From Terriglobia bacterium (GTDB lineage Bacteria > Acidobacteriota > Vicinamibacteria > Vicinamibacterales > CAVVIG01), in assembly GCA_020073005.1 (NCBI GenBank), contig JAIQFX010000015.1, positions 1 through 64,000 of the forward strand: a stretch of DNA of 64,000 nucleotides, given 5' to 3'. The translations under genes were made by a program, and so were the position numbers. Under the pieces are notes generated by a model. It had not been told where the DNA came from and did no database searches. It saw nothing but the letters and a program-made list of their open reading frames with translations. This document shows, piece by piece, positions 10,238 to 48,037 of this stretch. The number at the start of each line of letters is the position of its first letter. Position 1 is the stretch's first letter.

Positions 10238-10269
10238 GGTCCGACCCCGGTCCGACCCCGGTCGGACCC
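10238..10269. repeat. REP-like hairpin element
   Basis: GGGTCCGACC at 10238-10247 is followed by a further GGTCCGACC and then GGTCGGACCC at 10260-10269. The outer arms are perfect 10-bp inverted copies. The unit resembles the GGGGTCGGACCCC-type palindromes scattered through many GC-rich genomes. It lies between two divergent genes, directly upstream of the -10 element of the aldolase gene, so it could also affect transcription. Confidence 0.55.
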
Positions 10270-21143: not shown

Positions 21144-21209
21144 TAGTCGTTAGTCGTTAGTCGTTAGTCATTGGTCGACCAACGACCAACGACCAATGAC
21201 CAACGACTA
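21144..21209. repeat. Heptamer tandem array forming a 33-bp inverted repeat between convergent genes
   Basis: From 21144 the sequence is built of 7-nt units (GTCGTTA x3, GTCATTG, GTCGACC, AACGACC x2, AATGACC, AACGACT). The left half is the near-exact reverse complement of the right half. The dyad centre is at 21176/21177. The array fills the gap between the ankyrin gene and the convergent cyclophilin gene. The cyclophilin stop codon (21207-21209) is the last triplet of the array. Confidence 0.9.
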
Positions 21210-22711: not shown

Positions 22712-23308
22712 ATGATTCGCAAGTTCGTGGCAACCGCACTCGCGGTAGGAGCGCTGAGCATGACAGGATTTGCCGGTCAGGAAGAGGAGAAGGCTCCGGC
22801 CACCTTCAAGGTGAAGTTCGATTCGAGCGCCGGTCCTTTTGTGGTCGAGGTTCACCGCGCGTGGGCGCCCAACGGCGCGGACCACTTCTACCAGCTCGTG
22901 AAGGCCGGCTTCTACGACGAGGCGCGTTTCTTTCGCGTCGTGCCGAACTTCATGGTGCAGTTCGGCATCGCCGGCGATCCCGCCATGCAGAAGAAGATGG
23001 GCGCCAGCATCAAGGACGATCCGGTCAAGGAGAGCAACAAGCGCGGCTACGTGACGTTCGCGCAGACGTCGGCGCCGAACTCGCGGTCCACGCAGATCTT
23101 CATCAACTTCAAGGACAACAGCTTCCTCGACCCGCAGCGCTTTGCGCCGTTCGGCCAGGTGATCTCCGGCATGGACGCCGTGGACAAGATCAATTCGGAA
23201 TCCGGCGAGAAGCCGAACCAGGGCAGCATCCAGGCGCAGGGCAACGTGTACCTGAAGGCGCAGTTCCCGAAGCTGGATTACGTAAAGAAAGCCACGATAG
23301 AAAAGTGA
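22712..23308 (+). CDS. Exported peptidyl-prolyl isomerase, cyclophilin type
   Basis: 198 residues from ATG 22712, with AAAGGAGA upstream. Signal peptide VATALAVGALSMTGFAGQ. The cyclophilin domain has FDSSAGPFVVEVHRAWAPNGADHFYQLV, FFRVVPNFMVQFGIAGDP and FAQTSAPNSRSTQIFINF followed by FAPFGQVISGMDAVD. Together with the cytoplasmic cyclophilin at 21207-21719 it gives one enzyme on each side of the inner membrane. Its stop codon lies in the first unit of the downstream array. Confidence 0.95.
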   Translation: MIRKFVATALAVGALSMTGFAGQEEEKAPATFKVKFDSSAGPFVVEVHRAWAPNGADHFYQLVKAGFYDEARFFRVVPNFMVQFGIAGDPAMQKKMGASIKDDPVKESNKRGYVTFAQTSAPNSRSTQIFINFKDNSFLDPQRFAPFGQVISGMDAVDKINSESGEKPNQGSIQAQGNVYLKAQFPKLDYVKKATIEK

Positions 23309-23424
23309 AAAGTGAAAACTGAAAAGAGAAAAGTCAAAGGAGAAACTGAGAACTGAGAACTCGAGACCGTCGCAGTCTCAACTTTTCAGTTTTCAGTTTT
23401 CTCTTTTCAGTGTTCCACTTCAGT
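23301..23424. repeat. Heptamer arrays as an imperfect hairpin between convergent genes
   Basis: The left arm is AAAAGTG x2, AAAACTG, AAAAGAG, AAAAGTC, AAAGGAG, then AACTGAG-type units. The right arm (about 23376-23420) is the reverse complement in the same order (ACTTTTCAGTTTTCAG, TTTTCTCTTTTCAG). The stop codon of the exported cyclophilin (23306-23308) and that of the amidase (23420-23422) both lie in the array. The A-rich/T-rich arms may act as a bidirectional terminator. Confidence 0.85.
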
Positions 23425-42387: not shown

Positions 42388-44258
42388 CGGACCGCGACCT
42401 CGGGATGGATCGGCGGATTCCGCGCCGGGACTTTCTCAACGGCGTCGCGTTGTCCGTCGCGGCGCTTGGCCTGCGCGGCGCCCCAATCGATCTGTTCGCG
42501 CAGGGCGCGGCTGAATATCCGCCCTCGCTGACCGGGCTTCGCGGAAATTATCCGGACGCGGTCGGCGCGTTCGGGCCGATGGGGCAGGGCGCGTATCGGC
42601 AGTTCCCCGCGCTCGATGCGGACACGAACGAAACCCACGACCTCGTGATCGTCGGCGCCGGCATTTCCGGTCTCGCCGCCGCGCATTTCTGGCGGCGCGC
42701 GCTCGGCGCGAGCCAGAAGATTCTGATCCTCGACAACCACGACGACTTCGGCGGCCACGCCAAGCGCAACGAGTTCACGTATCGGGGCCGCACCTTCATC
42801 GGCTACGGCGGCACCCAGAGCATCGCGACGCCGTTCCCGTACAGCTACACCGCGAAGCGGCTCATCGAAGAGCTGACGATTCAGGTCGAGCGCAACGGCG
42901 AATTCCAGAATCGCGGGCCGCTCGGGAATCTCGGCCCGGCGATGTTCTTCGACAAGGAACATTTCGGCGAAGACCGCCTCGTCGCCGGCAACGGACGGCT
43001 GCCGTGGCCGGAGTTCTTCGCGAAGGCGCCGCTGTCCGATGCCGCGCGCAAGGATCTGATTCGGATCTACGGCACGAATCCGGACTACATGGCCGGAATG
43101 ACCGCCGAGCAGAAGATCGCGAAGCTCGCGTCGATCAGCTGGCAGGACTTTCTGCTGCGCTACGCGAAGATGACGCCGGAGGCGCTGCCGTTCTTCCTCG
43201 GCCAGGGCGGCCGCAACAACAAGCGCGTCGACACGACGCCCGCGCTCGAGGCGGCGAAGCGCGGATCGGCCGGCTTCAACGGCCTCGGCCTGACGTTCGA
43301 GGAAGAATTCCGCGAGTCGTCTTACACATTTCACTTCCCGGACGGCAACGCGTCGATCGCGCGCCTGCTCGTCAGCCGTCTAATTCCGGCCGCGCTGCCC
43401 CCTGGGAAGACGTTGCAGACGATGGAGACCATCGTTCAGGCGCCGATGATGTACGAGCGCCTCGACGAGGCGACGTCAGACGTGCGGATCCGGCTGAAGA
43501 GCACGGTGGTGCGCGTCGAGCATTCCGGATCGCCCGCGCGCGCCGACGTCGTGCGCGTCGCCTACCGGCGCGACGGGAAGATCCACGGCGTCCGCGGCCG
43601 GCACGTGATCCTCGCGTGCTACAACTCGCTGATTCCGTCGCTCGTGCCCGAGCTGTCCGCGAAGCAGAAAGACGCGCTCGCGTACTCGATCAAAGTGCCG
43701 ATGATGTACAACAACGTCCTCATCCGGCGCTGGACGGCGTTTCAGAAGCTCGGCGTGTCGAACATCTCGGCGCCCGGCATGTATCACACGAGCTGCGGCC
43801 TCGATCCCGGCACCTCGATCGGCGGCTATCGCGGCGTGACGACCGCAGACGAGCCGATCGTCGTGCGGCTGGTGCGCAATCCGAACACGCCGGGCCTGCC
43901 GCGACGCGAGCAGCACCGCGCCGGACAGCAGGAACTGCTCTCGATGTCCTTCGAGCAGTTCGAGCTCGAGATCCGCCGTCAGCTCGCGCGCATGCTCGCC
44001 GGCGGCGGCTTCGATCCCGCGGCGGACATCGTCGGGATCACCGTGAACCGGTGGCCGCACGGCTACTCGTACACGTACGACACGCTCGCCGATCCCGAGG
44101 TCGCGCCGGAAGAGCGACCGCACGTCATCGGCCGCCGACGATTCGGCCGGATTGCGATCGCGAATTCAGATGCGGGCGCGGCGGCGTTCACCAATCAGGC
44201 GATCGACGAAGCGAACCGCGCGGTCGAAGAGCTGTTCGTCGCGGAGGGACTGGCATGA
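42384..44258 (+). CDS. Tat-exported FAD-dependent oxidoreductase, spermidine-dehydrogenase-like
   Basis: 624 residues from ATG 42384. A twin-arginine leader ([20 protein letters not shown]) precedes a Rossmann FAD-binding motif ([19 protein letters not shown]) and the typical [18 protein letters not shown] that follows it in SpdH-type proteins. The C-terminal FAD contact region is [27 protein letters not shown]. It would oxidise an amine or related donor in the periplasm. Substrate inferred from overall resemblance only. ATGA overlaps on both sides. Confidence 0.88.
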
Positions 44259-45229
44259 AGGGGCTGAGGGCTGAGGGCAGAGGGCGAAGGGCGAGATTCC
44301 TGGCGGTGCTGCTTGCTTCGCTCGCGGCCGGTGTTGTGTCGGCGCGCGCGCCACGCGCGCTCGTCGAAGACGCCGCGCCGTACCGCCTGGTGCCGAACTG
44401 GGGACAGCTCAGCGCGCCGCTCGCGTGGGGCGAGACGCCGGCGATCACGCTCGCGCCCAACGGGCGCGTGTTCGCATTCACGCGCGCTGAGACGCCCGTC
44501 ATCGAAATGGACACGTCGGGCACGGTGCTGAAGACGTGGGGCGAGAAGATGTTCGTCTGGCCGCACGGCATGCGCGTCGATCGCAACGGATTCCTCTGGA
44601 TCACCGACGGCCGCGCGCGCAACGGCATGGGCCAGCAGGTCTTCAAGTACACGCTCGACGGCCGGCTCGTGATGACGCTGGGGACGAAGGGCGTCGCCGG
44701 CAACGGCCCCGATCAGTTCAACGGCGTGACCGACGTCGCGGTCGCGGCCAACGGCGATGTCTTCGTCTCCGACGGCCACGTCAATGCGCGGATCCTGAAG
44801 TTCTCGAAGGACGGGACGTTCATCAAGACGTGGGGGAAGAAGGGCACGGGCCCAGGCGAGTTCGACGTGCCGCACACGATTTTCTTCGACTCGCGCGGCC
44901 GGCTGTTCGTCGGCGATCGCTCGAACAAGCGGATTCAGATCTTCGATCAGGACGGGAACTTCATCGATCAGTGGACGCAGTTCGGATCGCCGAGCGGCAT
45001 CTTCATCGCGCCGGACGACACGCTCTACGTCGTCGACTACAACGACAAGATGGGGCTCTTCATCGGGAGCGCGAAGGACGGATCGATCAAGTACAAGAGC
45101 GAGCTCACGCTCGCCGAAGGCGTCACTGTCGGACCGGACGGATCGATCTACGTCGGCGAGACCGTACCGGGAAAGATTGGCGACCTCGTCACCGGCCACA
45201 CCGTCCGCAAGCTTGTGAAGCGCGACTAA
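44255..45229 (+). CDS. Exported NHL-type beta-propeller (peptidylglycine alpha-amidating lyase-like)
   Basis: 324 residues from ATG 44255. The n-region of the signal peptide (LRAEGRGRRAR) is encoded by a heptamer array. After the hydrophobic core LAVLLASLAAGVVSA comes a six-bladed propeller with NHL-like rungs (DRNGFLWITDGRARNGMGQQVFKYTLDGRL, ANGDVFVSDGHVNARILKFSKDG, RGRLFVGDRSNKRIQIFDQDG). This group resembles PAL lyase domains but catalytic activity is unproven. The stop codon is in the downstream CGACTAA array. Confidence 0.88.
   Translation: MKGLRAEGRGRRARFLAVLLASLAAGVVSARAPRALVEDAAPYRLVPNWGQLSAPLAWGETPAITLAPNGRVFAFTRAETPVIEMDTSGTVLKTWGEKMFVWPHGMRVDRNGFLWITDGRARNGMGQQVFKYTLDGRLVMTLGTKGVAGNGPDQFNGVTDVAVAANGDVFVSDGHVNARILKFSKDGTFIKTWGKKGTGPGEFDVPHTIFFDSRGRLFVGDRSNKRIQIFDQDGNFIDQWTQFGSPSGIFIAPDDTLYVVDYNDKMGLFIGSAKDGSIKYKSELTLAEGVTVGPDGSIYVGETVPGKIGDLVTGHTVRKLVKRD
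44261..44295. repeat. Heptamer array inside the signal-peptide coding region
   Basis: Five in-phase units: GGGCTGA, GGGCTGA, GGGCAGA, GGGCGAA, GGGCGAG. It starts at codon 3 of the NHL protein. Since 7 is not a multiple of 3 the reading frame rotates through the unit, giving the basic sequence GLRAEGRGRRAR, which suits a signal-peptide n-region. Confidence 0.88.
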
Positions 45230-45264
45230 CGACTAACGACTAACGACCAACGACCAACGACTAC
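45223..45264. repeat. CGACTAA/CGACCAA heptamer array between convergent genes
   Basis: Six in-phase units: CGACTAA x3, CGACCAA x2, CGACTAC. The first unit contains the TAA stop of the NHL gene, and the last contains the TAG stop (minus strand, 45261-45263) of the cupin gene. The family is the same as at 21144 and 47989. Confidence 0.9.
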
Positions 45265-45794: not shown

Positions 45795-47099
45795 ATGGAC
45801 GCTCTGCATGTTGCGCGGGCAGGCCTGAAGGCCTGCGCTACCAGTCTTGGCGTGGTGCTCGTCGTGGGGACGGCGCCCGCGGCGCAATCGCCCGGTCAGC
45901 CGGGGGTGACGTTCACCAAGGACGTCGCGCCCATCTTCCAGAAATCCTGTCAGAACTGCCATCGGCCCGGCTCGATCGCGCCGATGTCGCTCATCAACTA
46001 CGAAGACGCGCGGCCCTGGGCGCGCTCGATCAAAACGCGCGTCGAGATGCGGCAGATGCCGCCGTGGCACGTCGATCGCACGGTCGGCATTCGCCGGTTC
46101 AAAGACGATCCGTCGCTGAGCGACAAGGAGATCGCCACGCTCAGCGCGTGGGTGGACGCCGGCGCGCCGCGCGGCAATCCCGCCGACATGCCGCCGCCGC
46201 GCGTGTTCGAGGACGCCGATCGCTGGCACATCGGCAAGCCCGATCTGATCGTCGCGATGCCGAAAGAGTTCGTCGTCAAGCCGGAAGCCGCCGACTGGTG
46301 GGGCATCTTCACCGCGGATTCAGGATTGAAGGAAGACCGCTACATCAAAGCTGTCGAAGCGAAGCCGTCCCCCGGCGCGCGTCGTGTCGTGCACCATTCG
46401 GTCGAGTCGCTCGTCTACGACGATGGCACGAGCGGCGGCGGGACGCTGGTGGAATACGCGGTCGGCAAGAACGGCGACATCTTTCCCGAAGGCTCGGGCA
46501 AGCTGATGAAGGCCGGCGCCAAGGTCCGCTTCAACATGCACTATCACGCGGTCGGCGAGCCGATCACGGATCGCACGGAGGTCGGCATCGTCTTTTATCC
46601 GAAGGGCGTCGTGCCGAAGCACGTCATCACGACGATCCTCTCGCCGAATCAGGACGATCTCGACATTCCCGCCGGCGCGGACAACGTGCGGAGCGACGCC
46701 TACTTCAAGATGGACAAGCCGTCGCACCTCGTCGGTTTCATGCCGCACATGCACAACCGCGGCAAGCGTCAGTGCCTCGAGGCGATCTATCCCGACATGC
46801 ACGTCGAGCAGCTGAACTGCGTGAACTACGACTTCAACTGGCAGATCGTCTACAACTACGCGGACGACGTCGCGCCGCTGCTGCCGGCGGGGACGATCAT
46901 GCACGTCATCAGCTGGCACGACAATTCGGCCGCCAACAAGTACAATCCGGACCCGCGCAACTGGGTCGGCTTCGGCAACCGCACGACCGACGACATGTCG
47001 CGGCACTGGCTCACGTTCTATCCGATGACCGACGAGGAGTTCAAAGCCGAGGTCGCGGAGCGCAAGGCCAGGAGCAAGACCAGTACCGCGGCGCAGTGA
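45795..47099 (+). CDS. Exported cytochrome c fused to a copper type II monooxygenase-like domain
   Basis: 434 residues from ATG 45795, with GGAGGG upstream. N-terminal haem-binding segment KSCQNCHRPGSIAPM at about residues 52-66, followed by a large domain with His clusters resembling ascorbate-dependent copper type II monooxygenases (RRVVHHSVESLVYDD, VRFNMHYHAVGEP, GFMPHMHNRGKRQ, TIMHVISWHDNS). This fused layout recurs in Acidobacteriota and Planctomycetes, with unknown substrates. The signal-peptide start (ARAGLKACATS) is encoded by a REP-like palindrome. Confidence 0.85.
   Translation: MDALHVARAGLKACATSLGVVLVVGTAPAAQSPGQPGVTFTKDVAPIFQKSCQNCHRPGSIAPMSLINYEDARPWARSIKTRVEMRQMPPWHVDRTVGIRRFKDDPSLSDKEIATLSAWVDAGAPRGNPADMPPPRVFEDADRWHIGKPDLIVAMPKEFVVKPEAADWWGIFTADSGLKEDRYIKAVEAKPSPGARRVVHHSVESLVYDDGTSGGGTLVEYAVGKNGDIFPEGSGKLMKAGAKVRFNMHYHAVGEPITDRTEVGIVFYPKGVVPKHVITTILSPNQDDLDIPAGADNVRSDAYFKMDKPSHLVGFMPHMHNRGKRQCLEAIYPDMHVEQLNCVNYDFNWQIVYNYADDVAPLLPAGTIMHVISWHDNSAANKYNPDPRNWVGFGNRTTDDMSRHWLTFYPMTDEEFKAEVAERKARSKTSTAAQ
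45819..45840. repeat. REP-like palindrome recruited into an N-terminus
   Basis: GCAGGCCT-GA-AGGCCTGC followed by GCTA: a perfect 8-bp palindrome. On the minus strand it reads TAGCGCAGGCCTTCAGGCCT, the same architecture as 45750-45772. It encodes AGLKACAT at residues 9-16 of the cytochrome/monooxygenase protein. Confidence 0.72.
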
Positions 47100-47107
47100 C
47101 GAAGAAG

Positions 47108-47977
47108 ATGAACCACGGAGGACACAGAGGACACGGAGGAAGAAACAGTTTGGTTTCTGTCCTCCTTTCCTCCGTGTCCTCCGTGGTACTACTCTTCGTC
47201 GCGGCCCCTGCGTTCTCTCAGATTCGCTACGCCACGGGTCAGGACGTCGTCCCCGTCTTTGAAGGCTGGGAGCGCAACGCCGACGGCAGCTTCACCTTTG
47301 TCTTCGGCTACATGAACCGCAACTACGAGGAGGAAGTCGACATTCCGGTCGGTCCGGACAACTTCCTCGAACCGGGCGGCGTCGATCAGCGTCAGCCCGC
47401 GCATTTCTACACGCGGCGCCAGCAGTACGTTTTCAAAGTGCGCGTGCCGAAGGACTGGGGCAAGAAGGATCTGGTCTGGACGCTGACATCCCACGGCAAG
47501 ACGGAACACGCCTACGCCACGCTGCTGCCGACGTGGGAAATCGACGTCGGCACGTACCAGCAGAACCGCGGCGGACCAGGTGAGCTCGGCGAAGACGACG
47601 ACGCGCCGTCGATCCGGGTCGAAGGCGCGGCGCAGCGGACGATCTCCGCGGGATCATCGCTGACGCTCGACGCGTTCGTGATCGACGACGGCAAGCCGTC
47701 CAATCGTCCGAGCCAGAGCGGATCGAGCGCGCGCGTCGAAGGGCCGCTGACGCAGGCCGTCGTGCGGCTCGATCGCGGCGTCCGCCTCGGCGTGATCTGG
47801 GTGGTCTATCGCGGCGACGCGAAAGCCGTCACGTTCGAGCCGCGCAAGATCCCGGTGACCGACGGCAAGGCGTCGACCACGGTAAAGTTCAGCGCGCCCG
47901 GCACGTACGTCCTCCGCGCGTACGCCGACGATGGGATTCTGGTGTCGGCCGCGGACGTGACGGTGACCGTGAAGTAA
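47108..47977 (+). CDS. Exported hypothetical protein whose signal peptide is built from tandem repeats
   Basis: 289 residues from ATG 47108; a GTG at 47096 overlapping the upstream stop (GTGA) would add four residues. The first 30 residues (NHGGHRGHGGR, then SVLLSSVSSVVLLF) come from both arms of an inverted repeat array and form a workable signal peptide, cleavage near AAPAFS. The mature part has an FEGWERNADGSFTFVFGYMNRNYEEEVDIPVGPDN beta domain, then GPGELGEDDDAPSI and an Ig-like C-terminus (APGTYVLRAYADDGILVSAADVTVTV). Function unknown; probably partner of the upstream protein. Confidence 0.85.
   Translation: MNHGGHRGHGGRNSLVSVLLSSVSSVVLLFVAAPAFSQIRYATGQDVVPVFEGWERNADGSFTFVFGYMNRNYEEEVDIPVGPDNFLEPGGVDQRQPAHFYTRRQQYVFKVRVPKDWGKKDLVWTLTSHGKTEHAYATLLPTWEIDVGTYQQNRGGPGELGEDDDAPSIRVEGAAQRTISAGSSLTLDAFVIDDGKPSNRPSQSGSSARVEGPLTQAVVRLDRGVRLGVIWVVYRGDAKAVTFEPRKIPVTDGKASTTVKFSAPGTYVLRAYADDGILVSAADVTVTVK
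47112..47188. repeat. CCACGGAGGACAC-type inverted repeat array within coding sequence
   Basis: ACCACGGAGGACACAGAGGA, CACGGAGGA and AGAAACAG on the left are mirrored by CTGTCCTCCTTTCCTCC and GTGTCCTCCGTGGT on the right, around 47149-47156. The left arm encodes the n-region and the right arm the hydrophobic core of the signal peptide. Confidence 0.88.
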
Positions 47978-47988
47978 GAATAATCCAA

Positions 47989-48037
47989 CGACCAACGACC
48001 AACGACCAACGACCAACGACTACCGACTACCGACTAC
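47989..48037. repeat. CGACCAA/CGACTAC heptamer array
   Basis: Seven in-phase units: CGACCAA x4 (47989-48016) and CGACTAC x3 (48017-48037). The array ends one base before the GTG start of the methyltransferase gene, so no Shine-Dalgarno sequence is present. Same family as 21144 and 45223. Confidence 0.9.

Follow-up and report, generated by a model that had tools for sequence, protein, structure and literature searches.

Palindromic arrays of 9-bp units within predicted signal peptides of an acidobacterial genome

The window considered here is a stretch of 64,000 nucleotides from a Terriglobia bacterium genome (assembly GCA_020073005.1, contig JAIQFX010000015.1, positions 1 to 64,000 of the forward strand), in which a palindromic array of 9-bp units lies in frame at the 5' end of a gene encoding a predicted exported protein. 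The array is one copy of a dispersed palindromic family and not a one-off. Eight further genes of the same genome, unrelated to this one, carry such arrays in their predicted signal peptides, and an orthologue from another genus has an array of a different family at the same place. We consider it likely that the window array is a dispersed element translated as part of a signal peptide which existed before it, the case being one of tolerance combined with partial co-option.

Structure and reading frame of the window array

The array (47112-47187) is made of two 35-nt inverted arms, 80% complementary, on either side of a 6-nt loop. Both arms are tandem repeats of period 9, with 3.0 units of CACGGAGGA at 47114-47140 in the left arm and 3.2 units of TGTCCTCCG at 47158-47185 in the right one, and the predicted RNA fold of the array (-54.2 kcal/mol against a mean of -28.2 for shuffled sequences; z -7.9) was matched by none of 200 shuffles. 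The inverted tandem-repeat array described in an earlier sequence-only reading of this DNA is thus real, as is the open frame which that reading followed from ATG 47108 (MNHGGHRGHGGRNSLVSVLLSSVSSVVLLFVAAPAFSQ) and which continues into the protein ending at 47977; the repeat unit has to be redefined, as it is 9 bp long, the 13-mer CCACGGAGGACAC corresponding to one unit plus overlap. Rfam returned no match to the array above gathering score, only sub-threshold plant and animal microRNA hairpins, an identity which we dismiss as spurious since any long hairpin gives such matches.

The exact 13-mer CCACGGAGGACAC is present in 85 copies in the 5.86-Mb genome (none for the reversed control) and in 0 to 12 copies in 296 other genomes of the phylum. 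We extracted 4-kb loci around all 13-mer sites, thereby covering elements with the exact 13-mer only, and called genes by a simple codon-usage scheme. These loci yielded 51 repeat clusters (L009-L077 and the window), 27 of them well-formed and two-armed, and a consensus of 84 arms shows a conserved boundary (AACCAC) preceded by a loose A-rich flank. Family membership is thus supported by many copies, inverted arms and a common consensus. Thirty-six of the 51 clusters lie between co-directional genes, five between convergent ones and none between divergent ones; nine were flagged as overlapping coding sequence, mostly at gene ends.

The most likely start codon of the window gene is GTG 47096, which is in frame and overlaps the stop codon of the upstream gene (caGTGAcg), since the same gene order and a start overlapping the stop of the same upstream gene are conserved at the orthologous loci L083 (GTGA) and L085 (ATGA). 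The predicted product begins with a stretch of Sec-type composition, with an n-region charge of +4, a best 10-mer of Kyte-Doolittle hydropathy (KD) 2.74 and a putative cleavage site A-F-S/Q (the slash marks cleavage). The sequence-only reading saw this signal peptide as made entirely from the array, which does not hold: VTKK before the array and LLFVAAPAFS/Q after it are non-array parts, and the best hydrophobic 10-mer, VSSVVLLFVA, is half array and half outside.

The sequence-only reading named a start downstream of the array as what would refute it; the nearest candidate, which would leave part of the array untranslated, is TTG 47150 in the hairpin loop, with GGAGGA (47135-47140) as its Shine-Dalgarno sequence; the right arm alone would then be translated, the left arm serving as leader. 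The 9-nt spacing is near-ideal and the resulting signal, MVSVLLSSVSSVVLLFVAAPAFS, is still hydrophobic. However, it would have no positive charge before its core, the predicted RNA fold has GGAGGA base-paired to the right arm, the conserved GTGA/ATGA overlap points to the upstream start, and in the sister cases L068, L044 and L072 the left arm gives PRRTRGTRRK before the core. We therefore regard initiation at this TTG as unlikely.

Polarity of the arms and recurrence in unrelated genes

Over the 27 two-armed elements, the hydropathy of the second half minus that of the first averages +2.23 KD, against -0.01 for random segments; swapping the halves gives -2.25. The earlier proposal that the two arms give a polar and then a hydrophobic half is thus borne out. 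This polarity arises because purine-rich codons mostly specify polar residues in the genetic code, and a palindrome with its purines first therefore reads polar first and hydrophobic second in either orientation. Such a composition rule (purine-rich arm polar, pyrimidine-rich arm hydrophobic, always in that order) is directly testable. Together with a unit length that is a multiple of three and the lack of stop codons, this fixed polarity would allow an array to be tolerated in a signal peptide and hardly elsewhere in coding sequence. Polarity is nevertheless the only respect in which the arrays are strong, and we reject the idea that they are ready-made signal peptides: the fraction of array frames passing a crude signal-like criterion is barely above that of random DNA at a KD of 1.4 (0.117 vs 0.069) and equal to it at a KD of 2.0 (0.025 vs 0.028).

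Eight other genes (Table 1) start ahead of such an array or within it, and their predicted signal peptides run through it. The mature parts of all nine array-bearing genes are mutually unrelated, a point which the sequence-only reading had proposed to check. Among the downstream genes, 9 of the 12 exported ones have their start upstream of or inside the array, as opposed to none of the 24 others (2 of 24 with both unclear cases counted against; Fisher 2e-6 to 1e-4, genes grouped by hand). Across the nine genes, the left arm is read in all three frames (HGG, PRRT/RTRR and TTED); for the right arm, the SSV and LRV frames are used and the Pro/Cys frame is not. The N-termini NHGGHGG, PRRTRRTRR, TTEDTEDTE and SSVSSVSSV are repeat-derived, and similarity there is therefore not protein homology. 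In L035 and L044, all or most of the predicted hydrophobic core comes from the array, and the same is true of L029 by way of its spacer. The array supplies little or none of the strongest 10-mer in L012, L037, L062, L068 and L072, so that in five of the nine genes this 10-mer is encoded entirely or almost entirely by other sequence. The usual picture would thus be an array ahead of an older core and cleavage site, or extending into them.

One may ask whether these N-terminal extensions are artefacts, or belong to dead genes, with stop-free frames simply running through a repeat. Because a 9-bp array without stops is crossed by frames by chance, 78% of element frames are indeed open. This explanation is very improbable, as seven of the nine genes have no start codon between array and mature protein, the mature parts are intact and 80-96% conserved in congeners, and the array-bearing N-termini are kept between species.

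We also scanned 84,980 species for a right arm followed by an AxA-Q cleavage motif, which gave mostly chance hits. The sole clear fusion (L230, JACPZW010000020.1) belongs to a genome of the same genus, G022, and has the same N-terminus as L150; it is not an independent case.

Orthologues and array replacement at gene junctions

An orthologue of the window gene from another genus (L083, 85% identical) carries a different palindrome, made of CGC-type units, in frame at the same place; it gives a MTTIQKKPRRPQRTLSKIFLCFAISAISAV-like reading with a GTG start (fold -47.8 kcal/mol, z -6.5) and is itself dispersed in its genome (18 pattern hits vs 0 for the control). Two more distant orthologues, L084 and L085 (66-69% identical), are array-free and have ordinary predicted signal peptides, and a signal peptide appears to be present in the same position as in the window gene in the paralogues as well as in these three orthologues. 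Over all nine genes, 24 of 52 orthologous signal regions contain inverted repeats scoring at least 9.5, as against none of 52 coding control stretches from these genes; for scores of at least 14 the counts are 15 and 0 (p 2e-5). Array types also differ between congeners: the SCO1 gene has a CGC-type array in G023 and CAC-type arrays in G000 and G022, and the HupE/UreJ gene has heptamer arrays (GGCTGA-type) in G022 and G023.

The array-free orthologues of the other array-bearing genes likewise have ordinary, shorter predicted signal peptides, the median length being 26.5 residues against 46 for array-bearing genes (p 8e-5; hand-collected). Since signals are already present in array-free orthologues, the arrays would have remodelled and lengthened existing ones. 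The sequence-only reading had instead proposed a route by which new secretion signals arise, the array having made an export signal for a previously non-exported protein. Both arms together do yield polar and then hydrophobic residues, which is in its favour, but L084, L085 and the array-free orthologues of other genes already possess ordinary signal peptides, and none of the genes and orthologues examined gave an instance of export being newly gained. Such a de novo origin is thus highly improbable.

Junctions where the array is untranslated provide a second view of array replacement. All 14 orthologous comparisons show a palindromic array at the congener's junction too, of the same family in eight cases and of another family in six, so that hairpin position is conserved and hairpin sequence is not. 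At the malate dehydrogenase junction (L321) the array has collapsed to a remnant, AACCACCTCCGTGGTT, and at the hisF junction (L325) one palindromic array is nested within another. A new array may perhaps insert into the loop of an older one, which then decays, so that arrays would succeed each other at fixed places. In the signal-peptide cases, which would be junctions of this kind, the start codon of the downstream gene lies upstream of or within the array.

This raises the possibility that the arrays are above all intercistronic RNA or DNA hairpins, acting in transcript stability, translation coupling or supercoiling, the coding of signals being a by-product of the overlap between junction and signal. 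The placement of the clusters with respect to gene orientation, the palindromic arrays at all 14 non-signal junctions of congeners and the folding scores (z -6.5 to -7.9) are in favour of such a role. A plain insertion hot spot would, however, give the same picture. We consider the hairpin explanation possible, if short of probable, and it is compatible with co-option of the array rather than exclusive of it.

Returning to the reading we prefer, in which a dispersed element became part of an older signal peptide, the following course of events can be proposed. An element of 9-bp units, purine-rich in its left arm and pyrimidine-rich in its right, would occupy junctions of co-directional genes, here one whose downstream gene was already that of an exported protein, with a start overlapping the upstream stop. 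Lying in frame directly behind the start codon, the element would be translated as the N-terminal part of a Sec-type signal peptide. Its left arm would form a long polar n-region (VTKK coming from outside) and its right arm the first half of the hydrophobic core, with older gene sequence supplying the core end and the cleavage site. Over time, array families would succeed one another at the same junction. Of this course, the sequences themselves show the dispersed family, the in-frame position, the recurrence and the exchange of array families between orthologues; the start codon, translation, export, insertion, and nesting with decay are inferred. Whether this extends to the whole lineage, with interchangeable array families at fixed junctions replacing each other (probably by nesting and decay) and repeatedly rewriting signal peptides in many unrelated proteins of this acidobacterial family that were exported beforehand, is in our estimation evenly balanced.

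Several points weigh against the co-option of arrays into signal peptides. Translation through the array and export are read from sequence, and the signal-peptide calls from composition and hydropathy. The array's own core, SSVSSVSSVV, is weakly hydrophobic (KD 1.2). The choice of right-arm frame within one genome is not significant (Pro/Cys frame in 0 of 9 vs 5 of 28, p 0.31). The frame test speaks for translation, since the translated arrays keep their frame between congeners, with no stops, in 8 of 8 pairs (in some through compensating indels), whereas three of seven pairs of untranslated arrays show length differences (+1, -2 and +7); it is, however, partly circular, the start having been sought in the mature protein's own frame. 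The genes used for the inverted-repeat counts in orthologues were picked for their arrays in this genome, and same-genus orthologues share arrays by descent. Finally, the same array family is present on two megaplasmids of Gemmatirosa kalamazoonensis (Gemmatimonadota; NZ_CP007129.1 and NZ_CP007130.1, L336 and L337), at 25 places with 84% identity over the whole element (35 pattern hits), and no convincing signal-peptide fusion was seen among these copies; co-option is thus not automatic where the family occurs.

Related elements and neighbouring repeats

Signal peptides are known for rapid divergence, in which point changes predominate. In the present case, dispersed repeats would take the place of entire n-regions and of part of the core in many genes and several genomes, which amounts to a natural experiment on the minimal sequence needs of signal peptides. 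The fixed junctions, with conserved hairpin position and swapped hairpin families, call for a mechanism.

Palindromic elements that contribute to a signal peptide are known from single published cases. In Yersinia, the palindromic element YPAL/RU-2 forms part of the signal peptide of YPO1552 (Delihas 2007, PMC2759123; reviewed in PMC2229807). As in the window gene, the element is in frame at the 5' end and forms part of the predicted signal, and the signals of relatives are unrelated to the repeat. YPAL/RU-2 represents, however, one principal predicted case and a 168-bp element without 9-bp units, whereas nine genes of a single genome are concerned here, with several array families that can stand in for one another at a given position and a simple rule of purine arm followed by pyrimidine arm. 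Rickettsia palindromic elements (RPEs; Ogata 2000, according to PMC2229807), which we compare by description, are about 100 bp long and lie in frame within many unrelated protein genes; they are located within mature proteins, while the translated copies described here belong to the N-terminal signal, apart from a single internal copy, in frame within a penicillin-amidase gene (L066:1971-2028; PF01804, E 9e-205). In the open-access literature on this repeat, on repeats in signal peptides and on signal-peptide turnover (subscription journals and preprints being outside its scope), only precedents of the Delihas type were found; judged by this literature, the recurrence across many unrelated genes and the exchange of array families at one and the same position seem to be new.

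The arrays resemble REP/REPIN sequences with RAYT (Y1_Tnp) transposases in being short dispersed palindromes at gene junctions, but they are longer (about 75-100 bp) and built of tandem 9-mers. The array is absent within 1.5 kb of all four Y1_Tnp genes of the genome, and we reject a RAYT as its mover. One of these RAYT-like genes (L078) is flanked by another palindrome, of GGTCCGACCC type, at 1284-1344 and 2083-2128, and a similar repeat, GGTCCGACCCC, is found in the window at 10238-10269. As regards a transposon-derived (MITE) origin, inverted arms are present, no transposase match to them was found, and empty sites in relatives are too diverged for a target-site duplication to be read.

Short tandemly repeated repetitive sequences (STRRs) of cyanobacteria are dispersed intergenic arrays of a short unit, namely heptamers. 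Heptamer arrays also occur in this genome, but the 9-bp units form inverted pairs, and we regard the similarity as a resemblance only.

Table 1. Features of the window and array-bearing genes elsewhere in the genome
Feature	Position or locus	Strand	Comment
Upstream gene, 434 aa	45795..47099	+	weak cytochrome c and Cu2_monoox_C-like matches, below Pfam cut-offs
Stop codon TGA of upstream gene	47097-47099	+	overlaps probable start of next gene
Predicted exported-protein gene	47096..47977	+	probable start GTG 47096; 293 codons and stop; sub-threshold PKD-like match in C-terminal part
Predicted signal peptide, VTKKMNHGGHRGHGGRNSLVSVLLSSVSSVVLLFVAAPAFS/Q, 41 residues	47096..47218	+	from sequence reading and hydropathy
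Alternative start ATG (sequence-only reading)	47108..47110	+	in poorly conserved A-rich flank of element (flank consensus)
Left arm, purine-rich, 9-bp units	47112..47146	+	encodes HGGHRGHGGRN
Alternative start TTG, in hairpin loop	47150..47152	+	9 nt after Shine-Dalgarno-like GGAGGA of left arm
Right arm, pyrimidine-rich, inverted	47153..47187	+	encodes VSVLLSSVSSVV
Predicted non-array h-region end and cleavage region, LLFVAAPAFS/Q	47189..47221	+	from sequence and hydropathy
Amidase	L012		array in predicted signal peptide
M20 peptidase	L029		array in predicted signal peptide
LptE lipoprotein	L035		array in predicted signal peptide
HEAT/cyclophilin protein	L037		array in predicted signal peptide
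DsbD-like protein (named from its sequence)	L044		array in predicted signal peptide
M16 peptidase	L062		array in predicted signal peptide
SCO1/SenC	L068		array in predicted signal peptide
HupE/UreJ	L072		array in predicted signal peptide
Heptamer array	21144-21207		TAGTCGT/CGACCAA
Heptamer array	23299-23420		GAAAAGT/TTTTCAG
Heptamer array	45223-45263		CGACTAA
Heptamer array	47985-48037		CCAACGA/CGACTAC

Other repeats lie close to the window array. A palindromic repeat, CAGGCCTGAAGGCCTGC, is located at 45820-45836 in the predicted signal-peptide region of the upstream gene (MDALHVARAGLKACATSLGVVLVVGTAPAAQ); with at most one mismatch, it has 13 copies in this genome and 23 in G022, and none for the reversed control. 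In addition, GGGCTGA heptamer repeats at 44255-44300 encode the n-region of another predicted exported protein. The N-termini of three neighbouring, putatively exported gene products are thus touched by three repeat families (heptamers, CAGGCCTGAAGGCCTGC and 9-bp arrays). Heptamer arrays represent a second array size class in this genome, some of them occurring as inverted pairs.
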